Of a DNA stretch of 64,000 bases, positions 36,811 through 53,946 are shown piece after piece; the first letter of the stretch is position 1, and each line of letters opens with the position of its first letter. The translations under genes and the position numbers were made by a program. The notes under the pieces are model-generated. The model was given only the letters and a program-made list of their open reading frames with translations, was not told where the DNA came from and searched no databases. The stretch covers positions 310,001 to 374,000 of the forward strand of contig NZ_OCNE01000002.1 in assembly GCF_900230195.1 (NCBI RefSeq). The letters are read 5' to 3'. This stretch comes from Streptomyces zhaozhouensis. GTDB taxonomy: Bacteria > Actinomycetota > Actinomycetes > Streptomycetales > Streptomycetaceae.

Positions 36811-38295
36811 TCAGCGCTTCTCGGGTTGCAGCGGCAGATCGAGGATCACCCGGGTGCCGCCCCCCTCGGCCGGCAGCATGTCGAAGCGGCCGCCCAACTC
36901 CCCCTCGACCAGCGTCCGCACGATCTGGAGCCCGAGGTTGCCCCCGCCCCGCGGGTCGAACCCCTCCGGCAGCCCCCGGCCGTCGTCCTCGACGGTGACC
37001 AGCAGTCGGCTCGGTCCGCGCGGCACGTCGGTGCGGGAGGCCAGCACGTCGATGGCGCCCCGCTCCCCCGGGCCGAAGCCGTGCTCCAGCGCGTTCTGCA
37101 GCACCTCGGTGAGCACCATGGAGAGCGGCGTGGCGGTCTCCGCGTCCAGAATGCCGAAACGCCCGCTGCGGCGGCCCACCACCCGTCCCTCGGGGGAGAG
37201 TTCGGCGACCATCGCGATCACCCGGTCGGCGATCTCGTCGAACTCCACGCGCTCGTCGAGGTTCTGTGAAAGCGTCTCGTGCACGATGGCGATCGAGCCG
37301 ACCCGGCGCACCGCCTCCTCCAGCGCGGCCCGCGCGTTGGAGTCCCCGGCCGCGCCGATGCGGCGCGCCTGGAGGCGCAGCAGCGCGGCGACGGTCTGCA
37401 GGTTGTTCTTCACCCGGTGGTGGATCTCCCGGATGGTCGCGTCCTTGGTGATGAGTTCGCGTTCCCTGCGCCGCAACTCGGTCACATCGCGCAGAAGTAT
37501 CAACGAACCGATCCGTTCGCCTTTCGGCTTGAGCGGAATGGCGCGGAGTTGGATCACGCAGTCGGCGCCCTCGATCTCGGTCTCCCGAGGCGCCCAGCCG
37601 CTGGCCAGCTTCACCAGGGACTCGTCGACCGGCCCCCGGGTGGGGGCCAGGTCCGCGGTGGTCGGGCCGAGCGGCAGCCCCACCAGGTCGGCGGCGAGGC
37701 CCAGCCGGTGGTAGGCGGAGAGCGCGTTGGGACTGGCGTACTGCACGGTGCCCTCGGCGTCCAGCCGGATGAAGCCGTCGCCGACCCGGGGCGCCCGGTC
37801 CATCCCGACCTGCTGCCCGGGGAACGGGAACGCGCCGCCGGCGATCATCTGCGCGAGGTCGGACGCGCTCTGCAGGTAGGTGAGTTCGAGCCGGCTGGGG
37901 GTGCGCACGGTCAGCAGGTTGGTGTTCCTCGCGATCACCCCGAGCACCCGGCCCTCCCTGCGCACCGGGATCGACTCCACGCGCACCGGCACCTCCTCGC
38001 GCCACTCCGGATCGCCCTCGCGCACGATCCGTCCCTCGTCCAGCGCGACGTCCAGCAGCGGGCGCCGGCCCCTGGGGACCAGGTGGCCGACCATGTCGTC
38101 CTGGTAGGAGGTGGGACCGGTGTTGGGACGCATCTGGGCGACGGAGACGTAGCGGGTGCCGTCCTCGGTCGGCAGCCACAGGACCAGGTCCGCGAAGGAG
38201 AGGTCGGAGAGGAGCTGCCACTCGGAGACGAGGAGGTGCAGCCACTCCAGGTCTCCGGTCCCCAGGTCGGTGTGCTGACGTACGAGATCGTTCAT
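36811..38295 (-). CDS. PAS/GAF-domain sensor histidine kinase, PdtaS type
   Basis: A 494-residue cytoplasmic kinase. The N-terminal ~150 residues are a GAF-like sensor (LLSDLSFADLVLWLPTEDG), followed by a PAS domain (FIRLDAEGTVQYASPNALSAYHR, then LRAIPLKPKGERIGSLILLRD). The HisKA_2 phosphoacceptor is IREIHHRVKNNLQTVAALL, and the ATPase domain has VLTEVLQNALEHGFG and DDGRGLPEGFD. This kinase class pairs with an ANTAR-type response regulator, which is not in the window. ATG 38295 (MNDLVRQH) is chosen by similarity; GTG 38304 is possible. Confidence 0.9.
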   Translation of the reverse strand: MNDLVRQHTDLGTGDLEWLHLLVSEWQLLSDLSFADLVLWLPTEDGTRYVSVAQMRPNTGPTSYQDDMVGHLVPRGRRPLLDVALDEGRIVREGDPEWREEVPVRVESIPVRREGRVLGVIARNTNLLTVRTPSRLELTYLQSASDLAQMIAGGAFPFPGQQVGMDRAPRVGDGFIRLDAEGTVQYASPNALSAYHRLGLAADLVGLPLGPTTADLAPTRGPVDESLVKLASGWAPRETEIEGADCVIQLRAIPLKPKGERIGSLILLRDVTELRRRERELITKDATIREIHHRVKNNLQTVAALLRLQARRIGAAGDSNARAALEEAVRRVGSIAIVHETLSQNLDERVEFDEIADRVIAMVAELSPEGRVVGRRSGRFGILDAETATPLSMVLTEVLQNALEHGFGPGERGAIDVLASRTDVPRGPSRLLVTVEDDGRGLPEGFDPRGGGNLGLQIVRTLVEGELGGRFDMLPAEGGGTRVILDLPLQPEKR

Positions 38296-38399
38296 GGAGG
38301 GCACACCTGGAGCTTACCGGCGTACGCCTTGAGACGGTTCGGATGCGCCTTGTGATCAACTTGTGACGGGGAACGACGAAAACGGGCGGGAAGTCCGTT

Positions 38400-38570
38400 C
38401 AGAGCATGGACACATGGGAGCCGCGCGGTCCAGAATGAGGGAACCTCGGACTTCTGTCCTCCCCGCACAGGAGGGCAGAGCGGGGCCCGGCGCTCTCTGC
38501 CCTGACGGCGTCCCGGGCCCATATCGCTCCGGGCTGCGGTGCCAAGAGGGTTGAGGGTCCCTCTTCGGTG
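38400..38570. ncRNA. Structured intergenic RNA candidate (scr5239-like position)
   Basis: The gap upstream of the sensor kinase holds several strong helices. CTGTCCTCC (38454-38462) pairs with GGAGGGCAG (38470-38478); GGGCAGAG (38473-38480) can instead pair with CTCTGCCC (38495-38502), so the two are mutually exclusive. CCCGG/CCGGG (38512-38533) and AAGAGGG/CCCTCTT (38544-38565) follow. In S. coelicolor the sRNA scr5239 comes from the gap beside the orthologous kinase gene; identity and strand here are inferred. Confidence 0.4.
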
Positions 38571-38597
38571 CCGCGGCCCGTGGGTGGCCCCGGGGCA

Positions 38598-39230
38598 TCA
38601 CCCCGCCGGCGTCTCCGGCTCCTCCCGCAGCTCCGCCGGCCACGCGCGCATCGCGAGCTCCGCCACCGACCGCAGCTCCTCGGCGCCCGCGCCGTCCCGC
38701 GCCTGCTGGCTCATCCCCTGCATCACGGCCCCCGCGTAGCGGCCGAGCGCGTCGGCGTCGACGTCCTCGGGCAGCACGCCGGCGGCGATGTCCACCCTGA
38801 TCCGGGAGCTGAAGGCGCGGGCGTTCCCCTCGCGCACGACGCGCAGCTTCTCCGCGATCTCGCGGTCGGAGTCCTGGTAGTTGGTGGCGGCGGAGATGAT
38901 CAGACAGCCGGCGGGGCGGCCCGGCACGGCGTACTCGTCCGCCGCCCGGCGCAGCACCCGCTCCACGGCCCGGCGGGCGGTCGGCTCCTCCGCCATGGCC
39001 TGACCGACGAAGGAGCCGTAGGTCTCCACGTAGTGCGCCACGACCTCCTCGAAGAGGGTGCGCTTGTCCCCGAACGCCGCGTAGAGGCTGGGGGCCCCGA
39101 TGCCGAGGGCGGCGGTGAGGTCGGAGATCGAGGTGGCCCCGTAGCCGTGCCGCCAGAAGACATGGGTGGCCCGCTCCAGCGCGGTGTCGCGGTCAAAGGA
39201 GCGGGGGCGTCCACGCGATCGGGTGACCAT
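38598..39230 (-). CDS. TetR/AcrR family transcriptional regulator
   Basis: A 210-residue repressor. The N-terminal helix-turn-helix is clear: DTALERATHVFWRHGYGATSIS, then DLTAALGIGAPSLYAAFGDKRTLFEEVV. The C-terminal ligand domain (RPAGCLIISAATNYQDSDREIAEKL) is of the TetR_C type found beside SDR genes. It is divergent from an SDR oxidoreductase with paired inverted repeats between them, so it probably represses that gene and itself. Confidence 0.92.
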   Translation of the reverse strand: MVTRSRGRPRSFDRDTALERATHVFWRHGYGATSISDLTAALGIGAPSLYAAFGDKRTLFEEVVAHYVETYGSFVGQAMAEEPTARRAVERVLRRAADEYAVPGRPAGCLIISAATNYQDSDREIAEKLRVVREGNARAFSSRIRVDIAAGVLPEDVDADALGRYAGAVMQGMSQQARDGAGAEELRSVAELAMRAWPAELREEPETPAG

Positions 39231-46050: not shown

Positions 46051-46079
46051 AGTGGTGTAGACAAGAGGTTTAGACCAGT
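46051..46079. promoter_or_regulatory. DasR-responsive elements (dre) upstream of dasA
   Basis: AGTGGTGTAGACAAGA (46051-46066) and AGAGGTTTAGACCAGT (46064-46079) both resemble the dre consensus TGGTCTAGACCA; the second matches most positions of the 16-base palindrome. They lie between dasA and dasR, 65-93 bases before the dasA start. DasR binding is lifted by glucosamine-6-phosphate in S. coelicolor. Confidence 0.75.
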
Positions 46080-46260
46080 TGACCGGAGCCTGGACCAGAC
46101 CAGGAAGGGTGTCAAGGGCCGACGGCCCCCCGGGCGGGTCCGTTACCGGACCGACATCTGCCCTGGGGCGGCGGCTAGGACCGGCCCGTGCCACGATGTC
46201 AGCTGCGATCTTTCGGAGGAGCCGGTGACGGCAGAAAACAACGCGTCGGAGGGGTGGGAC

Positions 46261-47022
46261 ATGGCCAGCGAACCGGGTGCGACGGACGCCGCCGACCGGG
46301 TTCGGACGGCACGCGTCCCGAAGTACTACCGCCTCAAGCGTCATCTTCAGCAGATGACGGAGACCATGCCACCCGGCACTCCGGTGCCGCCGGAACGTTC
46401 ACTGGCGAGCGAGTTCGACACCTCCAGGACCACCGTGCGCCAGGCCTTGCAGGAGCTGGTGGTGGAGGGCCGCCTGGAACGCATCCAGGGCAAGGGCACC
46501 TTCGTCGCCAAGCCCAAGGTCTCGCAGACCCTGCAACTCACCTCCTACACCGAGGATATGCGCGCACAGGGCCTGGAGCCCACCTCCCAGCTGCTGGAGA
46601 TCGGCTACATCAACGCGGACGAGCGGCTGAGCCGCCTGTTGGGTCTACCCGAGGGCGGGCGTGTCCTGCGGATCGAGCGGCTGCGGCTGGCCAGCGGCGA
46701 GCCGATGGCCATAGAGACCACCCATCTCTCGCAGGAGCGCTTCCCCGCGCTGCGTCGGAGCCTGGTGCGCTACACCTCGCTGTACACCGCGCTCGCCGAG
46801 GTCTACGACGTCCATCTGGCGCACGCCGAGGAGACCATCGAGACCTCGCTGGCCAACCCGCGCGAGGCCGGGCTGCTGGGCACGGACGTCGGGCTGCCGA
46901 TGCTCATGCTCTCGCGGCACTCCCGGGACACCGGCGGTGAGCCGGTCGAGTGGGTGCGTTCCGTCTACCGGGGGGACCGCTACAAGTTCGTCGCCAACCT
47001 GGAGCGCCCGACGCCCTCCTGA
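46261..47022 (+). CDS. dasR: GntR/HutC family regulator DasR
   Basis: A 253-residue global regulator of amino-sugar use, development and antibiotic production. The winged helix reads [41 protein letters not shown], split by the recognition helix; the UTRA effector domain follows ([21 protein letters not shown], then [22 protein letters not shown], and [17 protein letters not shown]). ATG 46261 gives the length of S. coelicolor DasR and has GGAGGGG six bases upstream; GTG 46225 is an alternative. It is divergent from dasA. Confidence 0.95.
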
Positions 47023-51322: not shown

Positions 51323-51330
51323 CGACCTCG

Positions 51331-51441
51331 CTGTCACGCAGGGGAATCCGGTGCGAATCCGGAACTGTCCCGCAACGGTGTGTCATGGCCTGCTTCGTGC
51401 TGCCCTGACGAGTCCGAGTGCCTGCCGACGGCTGATCACGT
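51331..51441 (+). ncRNA. Cobalamin (B12) riboswitch upstream of nrdAB
   Basis: The core GGGAATCCGGTGCGAATCCG, then GAACTGTCCCGCAACGGT, and the later GAGTCCGAGTGCCTGCCGACG match the B12-box aptamer closely. Downstream, CGTCC/GGACG (from about 51439) and a long GAGGGACG/CGTCCCTC hairpin could act as terminator or expression platform before the nrdA start at 51559. In S. coelicolor a B12 riboswitch shuts off the class I reductase operon when cobalamin is present, favouring the B12-dependent class II enzyme. Confidence 0.93.
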
Positions 51442-51558: not shown

Positions 51559-53946
51559 GTGACCATCGCACCCGCCGCCCCCGCAGAGCCGGCCTCAGCG
51601 GCACTGACCCGCACCCTGGCCGACCTCACCGCCGACCTTCCGGCCACCGACCCCGCGCGGGTCGACGCGGCCGTCGCCCGGGGCCGCCATCCCGGCTCCG
51701 ACGCGGCCGAGTCGCGGGAGTTGGCCATCGAGGCCGCGGCGGGGCTGATCGCCGAGGAGCCCTCGTACTCCCGGCTGGCCGCTCGGCTGCTCACCCTCGC
51801 GATCCGCGAGGAGGCCGCCGGCCAGGGCGCGGTGACCTTCGCCGAGTCGGTGGCGGTCGGCCACCGGGAGGGGCTGATCGGGGACACCACCGCGGCGTTC
51901 GTGCGCACCCACGCCGAGGAGTTGAACGCGCTGCTGGCCCGCACCGTGGCCGAGGGCGCGGACGACCGCTTCGGCTACTTCGGGCTGCGCACCGTCCAGT
52001 CGCGCTACCTGCTGCGCCACCCGCTGCACCGCAAGGTGATCGAGACCCCCCAGCACTTCCTGCTGCGCGTCGCCTGCGGCCTGGCGCCGGACGACTCGGC
52101 CGACGCGCTGGCGCAGGTCGCCGAGTTGTACCGGCTGACCAGCTCGCTGGCGTATCTGCCGTCCTCCCCGACGCTGTTCAACTCCGGCACCCGACACCCG
52201 CAGATGTCCTCGTGCTATCTGCTGGACTCCCCCGCCGACGAGCTGGACTCGATCTACGAGCGCTACCACCAGGTCGCCCGGCTCTCCAAGCACGCCGGCG
52301 GCATCGGCCTCTCCTACACCCGGGTGCGCGCCCGCGGTTCGCTGATCCGCGGCACCAACGGCGCCTCCAACGGCATCGTGCCGTTCCTGCGCACGCTGGA
52401 CTCCTCGGTCGCCGCCGTCAACCAGGGCGGCCGGCGCAAGGGCGCGGCCTGCGTCTACCTGGAGACCTGGCACGCGGACATCGAGGAGTTCCTCGAACTG
52501 CGCGACAACACCGGCGAGGAGGCCAGGCGCACCCACAACCTGAACCTGGCGCACTGGATCCCGGACGAGTTCATGCGGCGGGTCGACGCCGACGCCGACT
52601 GGTCGCTCTTCTCCCCCGTGGACGTGCCGGAGCTGACGGACCTGTGGGGCGAGGAGTTCGACGCCGCCTACCGCGCGGCCGAGGCGAAGGGGCTGGCGCA
52701 GCGCCAGGTGCCGGCGCGGCAGCTGTACGCGCGGATGATGCGGACCCTGGCGCAGACCGGCAACGGCTGGATGACCTTCAAGGACGCCGCCAACCGCACC
52801 GCCAACCAGACCGCGAGGCCGGGCAACGTGGTGCACAGCTCCAACCTGTGCACCGAGATCCTGGAGGTCACCGACGACGACCAGACCGCCGTCTGCAACC
52901 TGGGCAGCGTCAACCTGGCGGCGCACCTCGGCGACGACGGCGGGATGGACTGGGAGCGGCTGGACGCCACCGTGCGGACCGCGGTGCTCTTCCTGGACCG
53001 CGTGGTGGACATCAACTTCTACCCGACCGAGCAGGCGGAGAACTCCAACTCCCGCTGGCGGCCGGTCGGCCTGGGCGTGATGGGCCTCCAGGACGTCTTC
53101 TTCCGGCTCGGGCTGCCGTTCGACTCACCGGCCGCCCGCGAGCTGTCCACCCGGATCGCGGAACGGATCATGCTCGCCGCGTACGAGACCTCCGCCGAGC
53201 TGGCCGAGCGCCACGGCCCGCACCCGGCGTGGGAGGACACCCGCACCGCGCGGGGTGTGCTGCACCCGGACCACTACGCCGACGCGAGCGCCGGCTGGCC
53301 TGAGCGCTGGGAGGCGCTGCGCGAGCGGATCGGCCGGGTGGGGATGCGCAACTCGCTGCTGCTGGCGATCGCGCCGACCGCCACCATCGCCTCGATCGCC
53401 GGCGTCTACGAGTGCGTCGAGCCGCAGGTCTCCAACCTGTTCAAGCGCGAGACGCTCAGCGGCGAGTTCCTCCAGGTCAACACCTACCTGGTCGCCGAGT
53501 TGAAGCGGCTGGGCCGCTGGGACGAGGCGACCCGGCAGGCGCTGCGCGCCGGCAACGGCTCGGTGGCCGAGGTGCCGGGGCTGCCCGACGAGGTGCGGGA
53601 GCTGTACCGCACGGCGTGGGAGATCCCGCAGCGCGCGCTGATCGACATGGCGGCCGACCGCACCCCGTACCTGGACCAGAGCCAGTCGCTGAACCTCTTC
53701 ATGGCCTCGCCGACCATCGGCAAGCTCAGCTCGATGTACGCGTACGCCTGGAAGCGCGGCCTGAAGACCACCTACTACCTGCGGTCGCGGCCGGCGACCC
53801 GGATCGCGCAGTCCGCGCGTTCCGCCGCCACGACGGCCCCGCCGCCCACCCCGGTCGCCGCCGCCGGCGGCGACCCGCTTCCCGTCCCCGAGCAGGCCGT
53901 CGCCTGCTCCCTGGAGAACCCCGAGTCCTGCGAGGCGTGCCAGTGA
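51559..53946 (+). CDS. nrdA: Class I ribonucleotide reductase large subunit
   Basis: A 795-residue alpha subunit that reduces ribonucleotides for DNA synthesis. Landmarks are an N-terminal ATP-cone-like region, the first active-site cysteine in MSSCYLLDSPADELD, VNQGGRRKGAACVYLETWH, the catalytic region NLCTEILE and CNLGSVNLAAH, and the C-terminal redox pair in SCEACQ. GTG 51559 follows GAGGGAGAG. It is under the B12 riboswitch and NrdR boxes. The GTG of nrdB overlaps its stop (GTGA), so the two are coupled. Confidence 0.95.
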   Translation: MTIAPAAPAEPASAALTRTLADLTADLPATDPARVDAAVARGRHPGSDAAESRELAIEAAAGLIAEEPSYSRLAARLLTLAIREEAAGQGAVTFAESVAVGHREGLIGDTTAAFVRTHAEELNALLARTVAEGADDRFGYFGLRTVQSRYLLRHPLHRKVIETPQHFLLRVACGLAPDDSADALAQVAELYRLTSSLAYLPSSPTLFNSGTRHPQMSSCYLLDSPADELDSIYERYHQVARLSKHAGGIGLSYTRVRARGSLIRGTNGASNGIVPFLRTLDSSVAAVNQGGRRKGAACVYLETWHADIEEFLELRDNTGEEARRTHNLNLAHWIPDEFMRRVDADADWSLFSPVDVPELTDLWGEEFDAAYRAAEAKGLAQRQVPARQLYARMMRTLAQTGNGWMTFKDAANRTANQTARPGNVVHSSNLCTEILEVTDDDQTAVCNLGSVNLAAHLGDDGGMDWERLDATVRTAVLFLDRVVDINFYPTEQAENSNSRWRPVGLGVMGLQDVFFRLGLPFDSPAARELSTRIAERIMLAAYETSAELAERHGPHPAWEDTRTARGVLHPDHYADASAGWPERWEALRERIGRVGMRNSLLLAIAPTATIASIAGVYECVEPQVSNLFKRETLSGEFLQVNTYLVAELKRLGRWDEATRQALRAGNGSVAEVPGLPDEVRELYRTAWEIPQRALIDMAADRTPYLDQSQSLNLFMASPTIGKLSSMYAYAWKRGLKTTYYLRSRPATRIAQSARSAATTAPPPTPVAAAGGDPLPVPEQAVACSLENPESCEACQ

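Follow-up and report, generated by a model that had tools for sequence, protein, structure and literature searches.

The window, which is the whole stretch of 64,000 nucleotides analysed from Streptomyces zhaozhouensis, carries on its forward strand, at 38451-38571, a match to the small RNA scr5239 (Rfam RF02605; 96.6 bits by cmscan, gathering score 64), one of two Rfam matches that reach the gathering score in the window. The sRNA diverges from the gene of the histidine kinase PdtaS (36811-38304, reverse strand; domains GAF_PdtaS with 192 bits, HisKA_2 and HATPase_c), which is SCO5239 in S. coelicolor (PMC9739842), and converges with the gene of a TetR-family regulator (38598-39230, reverse strand; TetR_N and TetR_C_13). 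A 35-base stretch of the window is common to S. sedi, S. triticirhizae and Streptomyces sp. NBRC 109706. The first-pass annotation had proposed a structured RNA in this gap and pointed to scr5239 beside the orthologous kinase; both points are borne out by the covariance-model match, the kinase domains and the covariation found across relatives.

The sRNA scr5239, rated by the authors of PMC7025569 as the best characterised streptomycete sRNA, has been described in S. coelicolor as a 159-nt RNA with a five-stem structure, including P4, probed in vitro (PMC4365011, PMC7025569). The RNA of the window resembles it in the full-length match to the covariance model (positions 1-158), in the stems P1, P2 and P5, in its place beside pdtaS and in the tandem seed GCUCCGG-GCUGCGG (38527-38539), which contains the GCUGCGG motif described for the P4 seed (PMC4365011). 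Conversely, the P3 region, about 37 model positions, is missing, so that the copy lacks one of the five stem-loops (a descriptive trait of scr5239, not an Rfam criterion), the DasR operator (dre) is gone, and the RNA diverges from pdtaS, whereas in S. coelicolor the two are codirectional. By comparison, the window copy is the known sRNA in a short form, without P3 and without the DasR operator.

Among 392 sampled Streptomyces genomes, 389 had a match to RF02605, 387 of them over the cut-off, as against none of 14 control genomes; the literature puts the share of Streptomyces genomes with scr5239 at about two thirds (PMC4365011). Matches were found in 181/197 genomes and 2/6 genera of an order-wide sample, and in 36/61 genomes and 1/14 genera of a sample of relatives. 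For the comparison of loci, 169 were chosen, the best-scoring ones plus those of small-genome, low-scoring, motif-lacking or two-match genomes, and the fractions given for this non-random sample are not frequencies. Three entries (L147, L177, L178), each the second part of a split copy, were dropped. Of the 169 loci, 38 lack the P3-loop string CGCACA. In three genomes (L144, L169, L170), inserts that share sequence (GGGCCTGCCTTTTGGAAC...) interrupt scr5239 between P3 and P4, and the P4-P5 part lies further on, after the insert. One genome without an Rfam match retains a remnant (L148) with dre, P1 and a long 3' hairpin, in which P2, P3 and the usual seed are absent.

Upstream of the sRNA, TGGACA (38407-38412) and CAGAAT (38431-38436), 18 nt apart, form a promoter-like pair on the forward strand. 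It is the sole promoter-like site found in 38250-38700 (the shuffles gave a mean of 0.0), and the pair is conserved in relatives. In most of the loci inspected, about 18 nt separate TGGACA from CA[CG]AAT, and the DasR operator TGGTCTAGTC(CA) forms the end of this spacer; the pattern GGTC[CT]AGTCCA[CG]AAT was detected in 352 of 392 genomes, almost always as a single copy, and its backward control in none. Three loci (L122, L131, L132) have such a hexamer pair, with CACAAT or CACCAT, upstream of the operator. The operator upstream of scr5239 is reported to be conserved and bound by DasR (PMC4398421), and scr5239 expression to depend on DasR (PMC7025569). In the window its left half is lost, and no dre within three mismatches was found near the sRNA. 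Allowing at most two mismatches within 250 nt, the operator is absent in 16 of the 169 loci, 13 of which keep the hexamer pair, the window being among both; 126 of the 153 operator-bearing loci match the hexamer pattern and 27 do not. Since the operator is gone and the -35/-10-like pair is kept, the window copy has probably escaped repression by DasR. In S. coelicolor, scr5239 is reported to start where the Rfam model begins, and a dre-less reporter was still active, indeed more so (PMC4365011, PMC7025569). The activity of this dre-less reporter fits a start downstream of the proposed promoter. Elsewhere in the window, a cluster of DasR-type sites (46053-46102) lies between the gene of a GntR/UTRA regulator (46261-47022), which we take to be dasR from its position beside das-type genes, and a divergent solute-binding protein gene; this is likely the dasR-dasA gap.

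Fold stability by itself is weak evidence for structure, with z = -1.93 for 38451-38571 (8/200 shuffles equally good) and z = -1.40 for 38400-38570 (19/200). Covariation was examined in an alignment (A1) of 64 of the 116 distinct 5' parts, the window included; sequences lacking the P2 loop, near-copies and several sequences with a P1 of altered length were omitted. Stem P1 (38452-38480; 38452-38462 with 38470-38480) is paired in 93.4% of the cells, 57 cells are changed on both sides, and its covariation of 0.335, against 0.207 when shuffled, was reached by 0 of 500 shuffles, a strong signal across relatives. Stem P2 (38483-38520), predicted by folding, has an apical CUGCCC loop, and its loop string CTCTGCCCT is present in 120 of 130 loci. 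The P1 loop holds CCGCACA in 136 of 140 loci, and CGCACA recurs in the P3 region of 110/140: could these loops be a second interaction site? The motif CCGCACA is also complementary to UGCGG of the seed, a kissing candidate, both being nearly invariant. Targets of ANTAR proteins are described as two stem-loops with hexanucleotide loops that have A at position 1 and G at position 4 (PMC8164766); with a P1 loop of 7 nt, a CUGCCC loop on P2 and a P5 loop of 8 nt, we rejected an ANTAR-target RNA by eye on the fold.

The seed region, UCGCUCC-GGGCUGCGG-UGCC (38525-38543), corresponds to the published P4 target-binding site (PMC4365011). It pairs as a 5' arm with the 3' arm GGUGCCGCGGCCCG-U-GGGUG (38567-38586), and the covarying P5 hairpin (38544-38566) is the apex of the resulting long hairpin. 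The first-pass annotation, whose region ended at 38570, had the switch followed by two more hairpins. This picture is incomplete: the structure continues beyond that position through the pairing of 38525-38543 with 38567-38586, which encloses P5. The Rfam model stops at 38571, five bases into the 3' arm. In the flank past this point, CCG[CT]GGCCC was present in 139/139 loci with a P5 anchor (140 were tried, and L144 lacked the anchor); it is followed by a majority GCGGGUGUUUCC, and conservation fades about 19 bases beyond CCG[CT]GGCCC.

A second alignment (A2) comprised 81 of 132 distinct sequences, with near-copies, L104, L111 and L112 omitted. Here, the 26-pair hairpin is paired in 95.3% of the cells; changes on both sides affect 10 pairs and 87 cells, and 0 of 500 shuffles showed covariation as high. 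The double changes fall mostly in P5 (77 cells); eight belong to the five outermost pairs of the long stem, each unpaired in 2 to 27 of the 81 sequences, and two to the 13 inner pairs between seed and arm. These inner pairs alone are paired in 1052 of 1053 cells (4/500 shuffles as high), and in 38.7 to 54.0% when slid. Covariation inside the seed stem is slight because both arms hardly vary; in this comparison, the stem appears to be supported by near-perfect pairing with few, mostly pair-keeping changes, rather than by rich covariation. Among 167 loci, including ones omitted from A2, 54 inner-stem cells are off consensus, of which 40 are paired and 14 unpaired, five of the latter belonging to a single locus (L173) that was compared without gaps; CUACGG seeds (L057, L149, L151) stand opposite CCGUGG arms. 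Of 392 genomes, 318 have the exact two-arm pattern, and the backward control was found in none. Eight of the 169 loci failed the regular expression for the arms: in four (L158, L166, L173, L174) bases are changed and the long hairpin still folds, three (L144, L169, L170) are broken before P4, and one from another genus (L146) has one mismatch.

The long hairpin and the published small P4 hairpin are mutually exclusive. RNAalifold picks the former, and in the P4 mini-hairpin cells with double changes are wholly absent, as is covariation. Opening nine seed bases in the window costs 7.0 kcal/mol when the RNA stops at the Rfam end and 24.6 kcal/mol with the arm and tail; over 153 loci the medians are 6.9 and 24.7 kcal/mol, and the smallest difference is 1.4. 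No U-run follows the long hairpin in the window copy, and a consensus terminator scan of 38250-38700 found no terminator, so that a terminator role is something we infer; the long hairpin would probably be scr5239's own terminator. Hairpin 13 of RNAIII in Staphylococcus aureus is a terminator hairpin that doubles as a target-pairing site; scr5239, unrelated to it in sequence, would likewise use a terminator hairpin for target pairing. Pairing at the sRNA terminator stem-loop is also reported for AsxR with FnrS and ChiX with chbBC, where it destabilises the sRNA (PMC4104026); in scr5239 a terminator arm would instead be the proposed seed.

As regards targets, the published scr5239 sites are at +7 to +30 of metE and in the initiation region of pck (PMC4365011, PMC7025569). 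Complementary sites for both repression targets are present in the window genome, as read from its sequence: metE is over the cut-off with CCGCAGC at codons 4-6, and the start of pck is preceded by GGAGCGA, to which UCGCUCC in the seed region is complementary. All 30 chosen genomes have pck over the cut-off, and 15 of them metE; since metE reaches it in just half of the genomes, it was rejected as the sole cause of seed conservation. Of 17 metE starts, the window's included, nine have CCGCAGC by automatic search, two more (L183, L184) by reading the printed sequence, where the script had missed the start motif, and six are without it. The Shine-Dalgarno sequence of pck and the 5' half of the seed match in GGAGCGA/UCGCUCC and GGAGCAA/UUGCUCC combinations, with misfits, e.g., in G271, G008 and G339; this matching is suggestive and confounded by clade. 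The energies computed for duplexes between P4 and metE or pck did not surpass those of shuffles (fractions of shuffles as low, 0.378 and 0.49), a comparison that is uninformative at such GC. In one genome (G012; L195, L198-L200), metE occurs only in pieces and the seed is changed to CUACGG.

On this evidence, we favour, with reasonable but incomplete confidence, the reading of the window RNA as a trans-acting member of scr5239 whose seed is buried in its own long 3' hairpin and which is probably free of DasR here. Transcription would run on the forward strand from TGGACA-N18-CAGAAT, starting near 38443 and diverging from pdtaS, and would end after the long hairpin (38525-38586), in which the seed is the 5' arm and P5 the apex. 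In such a full-length transcript the seed would be buried, and its binding to metE mRNA, and probably to pck, would require that the 3' arm first be removed or invaded. With the operator lost in the window lineage and the -35/-10-like pair retained, repression by DasR would probably have disappeared.

An ordinary scr5239 as published, ending at the Rfam end with its seed in the small P4 and with a 3' complementarity that acts as terminator or at the DNA level and does not influence the seed, is a tentative alternative that we consider quite possible. It agrees with the published 159-nt size and with the probing, EMSA and reporter data from S. coelicolor (PMC4365011, PMC7025569). However, the published end falls inside the stem of the long hairpin, and a primary end within a stem of 13-19 bp would be odd; moreover, the 3' arm is conserved like the seed throughout the 139 loci and stays with the sRNA in either orientation, and covariation is lacking in the P4 mini-hairpin.

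The orientation of the sRNA is variable. Tblastn searches with the window neighbours placed pdtaS downstream on the sRNA strand in 97 of the 169 loci and divergent in 72. In both groups, the TetR, SIS and glycosidase genes found within the 1.5-kb flanks lie upstream of pdtaS on the pdtaS strand, and the SDR gene lies upstream on the other strand, with no exception among 236 observations. The neighbours being collinear in both groups, it is the sRNA cassette that changed direction and not they. On the pdtaS tree, we counted six orientation changes, at least five of them forced by well-supported branches (bootstrap range 5-7, not fully settled); with 142 loci there were again six changes, five forced (bootstrap range 6-6). 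This comparison suggests that the scr5239 gene repeatedly flipped between its neighbours, loss and re-insertion being a possible alternative to a true flip. Flanking inverted repeats were rejected as the cause, since they did not exceed chance (mean longest arm 6.3, against 6.0 with one side shuffled, 155 loci), and so were tandem opposite copies as inversion intermediates, as two-match genomes hold one split copy in a single orientation. A motif search also found a nagB-type gene after the sRNA, on the same strand, in 13 of 140 loci (e.g., L109-L112), several of which have a DasR-type site, TGGTATAGACCA, between the two; this is possibly the older gene order.

The gap had also been proposed as the 5' region of the kinase, with a possible cis role. 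We consider a cis-acting leader or attenuator of pdtaS very improbable. The RNA is indeed codirectional with and upstream of pdtaS in the 97 loci, and a homolog in S. ambofaciens was first found among UTRs (PMC8388888). However, a cis leader would lie upstream on the same strand, within the mRNA, whereas in the window, as in the 72 divergent loci, the sRNA and pdtaS occupy opposite strands. Furthermore, in 169/169 loci, whichever way the sRNA points, the pdtaS start codon is preceded at 3-9 nt by TANN[C/G]T (control windows further upstream 4/845); in the window, TAAGCT shortly before GTG indicates a promoter of the leaderless type, and the S. coelicolor kinase transcript is reported as leaderless (PMC4365011, S5 Fig legend). 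From these motifs, the kinase probably does not have its 5' UTR in the intergenic gap.

The remaining proposal, a switch in which GGGCAGAG (38473-38480) alternates between P1 and CTCTGCCC (38495-38502) in the P2 loop, is hardly credible. The complementarities exist at these places: AGGGCAGAG/CTCTGCCCT, perfect over nine bases, is the sole listed inverted repeat of at least nine bases in 38290-38620, and among the 130 of 139 loci tried in which both loops were recognised, the alternative helix could form 8-9 pairs in 34. However, it could form 6-7 in 59 and just 4-5 in 37, while P1 reaches at least nine in 125. In A1 the alternative helix is paired in 85.0% of the cells, with two cells changed on both sides and a covariation of 0.077, equal to the shuffled value, and in the window it is 6.7 kcal/mol worse (6.0 with the predicted leader), with pairing probabilities of at most 0.0001 against at least 0.82 for all P1 pairs save the outermost. 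Mutually exclusive structures are better supported, in these alignments, at P4 versus the long 3' hairpin.

Returning to the favoured reading, a seed buried in the long 3' hairpin, it can be taken further: the precursor would be inactive, with the terminator hairpin locking the seed until cutting or trimming of the 3' arm arms it, and the cassette of promoter, sRNA and terminator would be an autonomous unit, flipped in place at least five times in Streptomyces and in this lineage also escaped from DasR. We regard this whole extended model as rather unlikely. If the precursor part were true, RNA processing (e.g., by RNase III), and not DasR alone, would set scr5239 activity. With the seed as the 5' arm of its own terminator, the published structural and binding data for the 159-nt RNA would describe a processed form, and 3'-end processing would become a testable control point. 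Recurrent inversion in place would separate the trans function from the position beside pdtaS, and lineages without the DasR operator offer natural experiments on the contribution of DasR control. What we consider new here is the long hairpin between the seed and the 3' flank, the cassette inversion, and a copy without P3 and dre that has a -35/-10-like pair; in a limited literature search, neither the long hairpin nor the inversion was found in print.

Elsewhere in the window, an AdoCbl-II riboswitch (51325-51431, 39.8 bits) lies directly upstream of the gene for the large subunit of ribonucleotide reductase (51559-53946).
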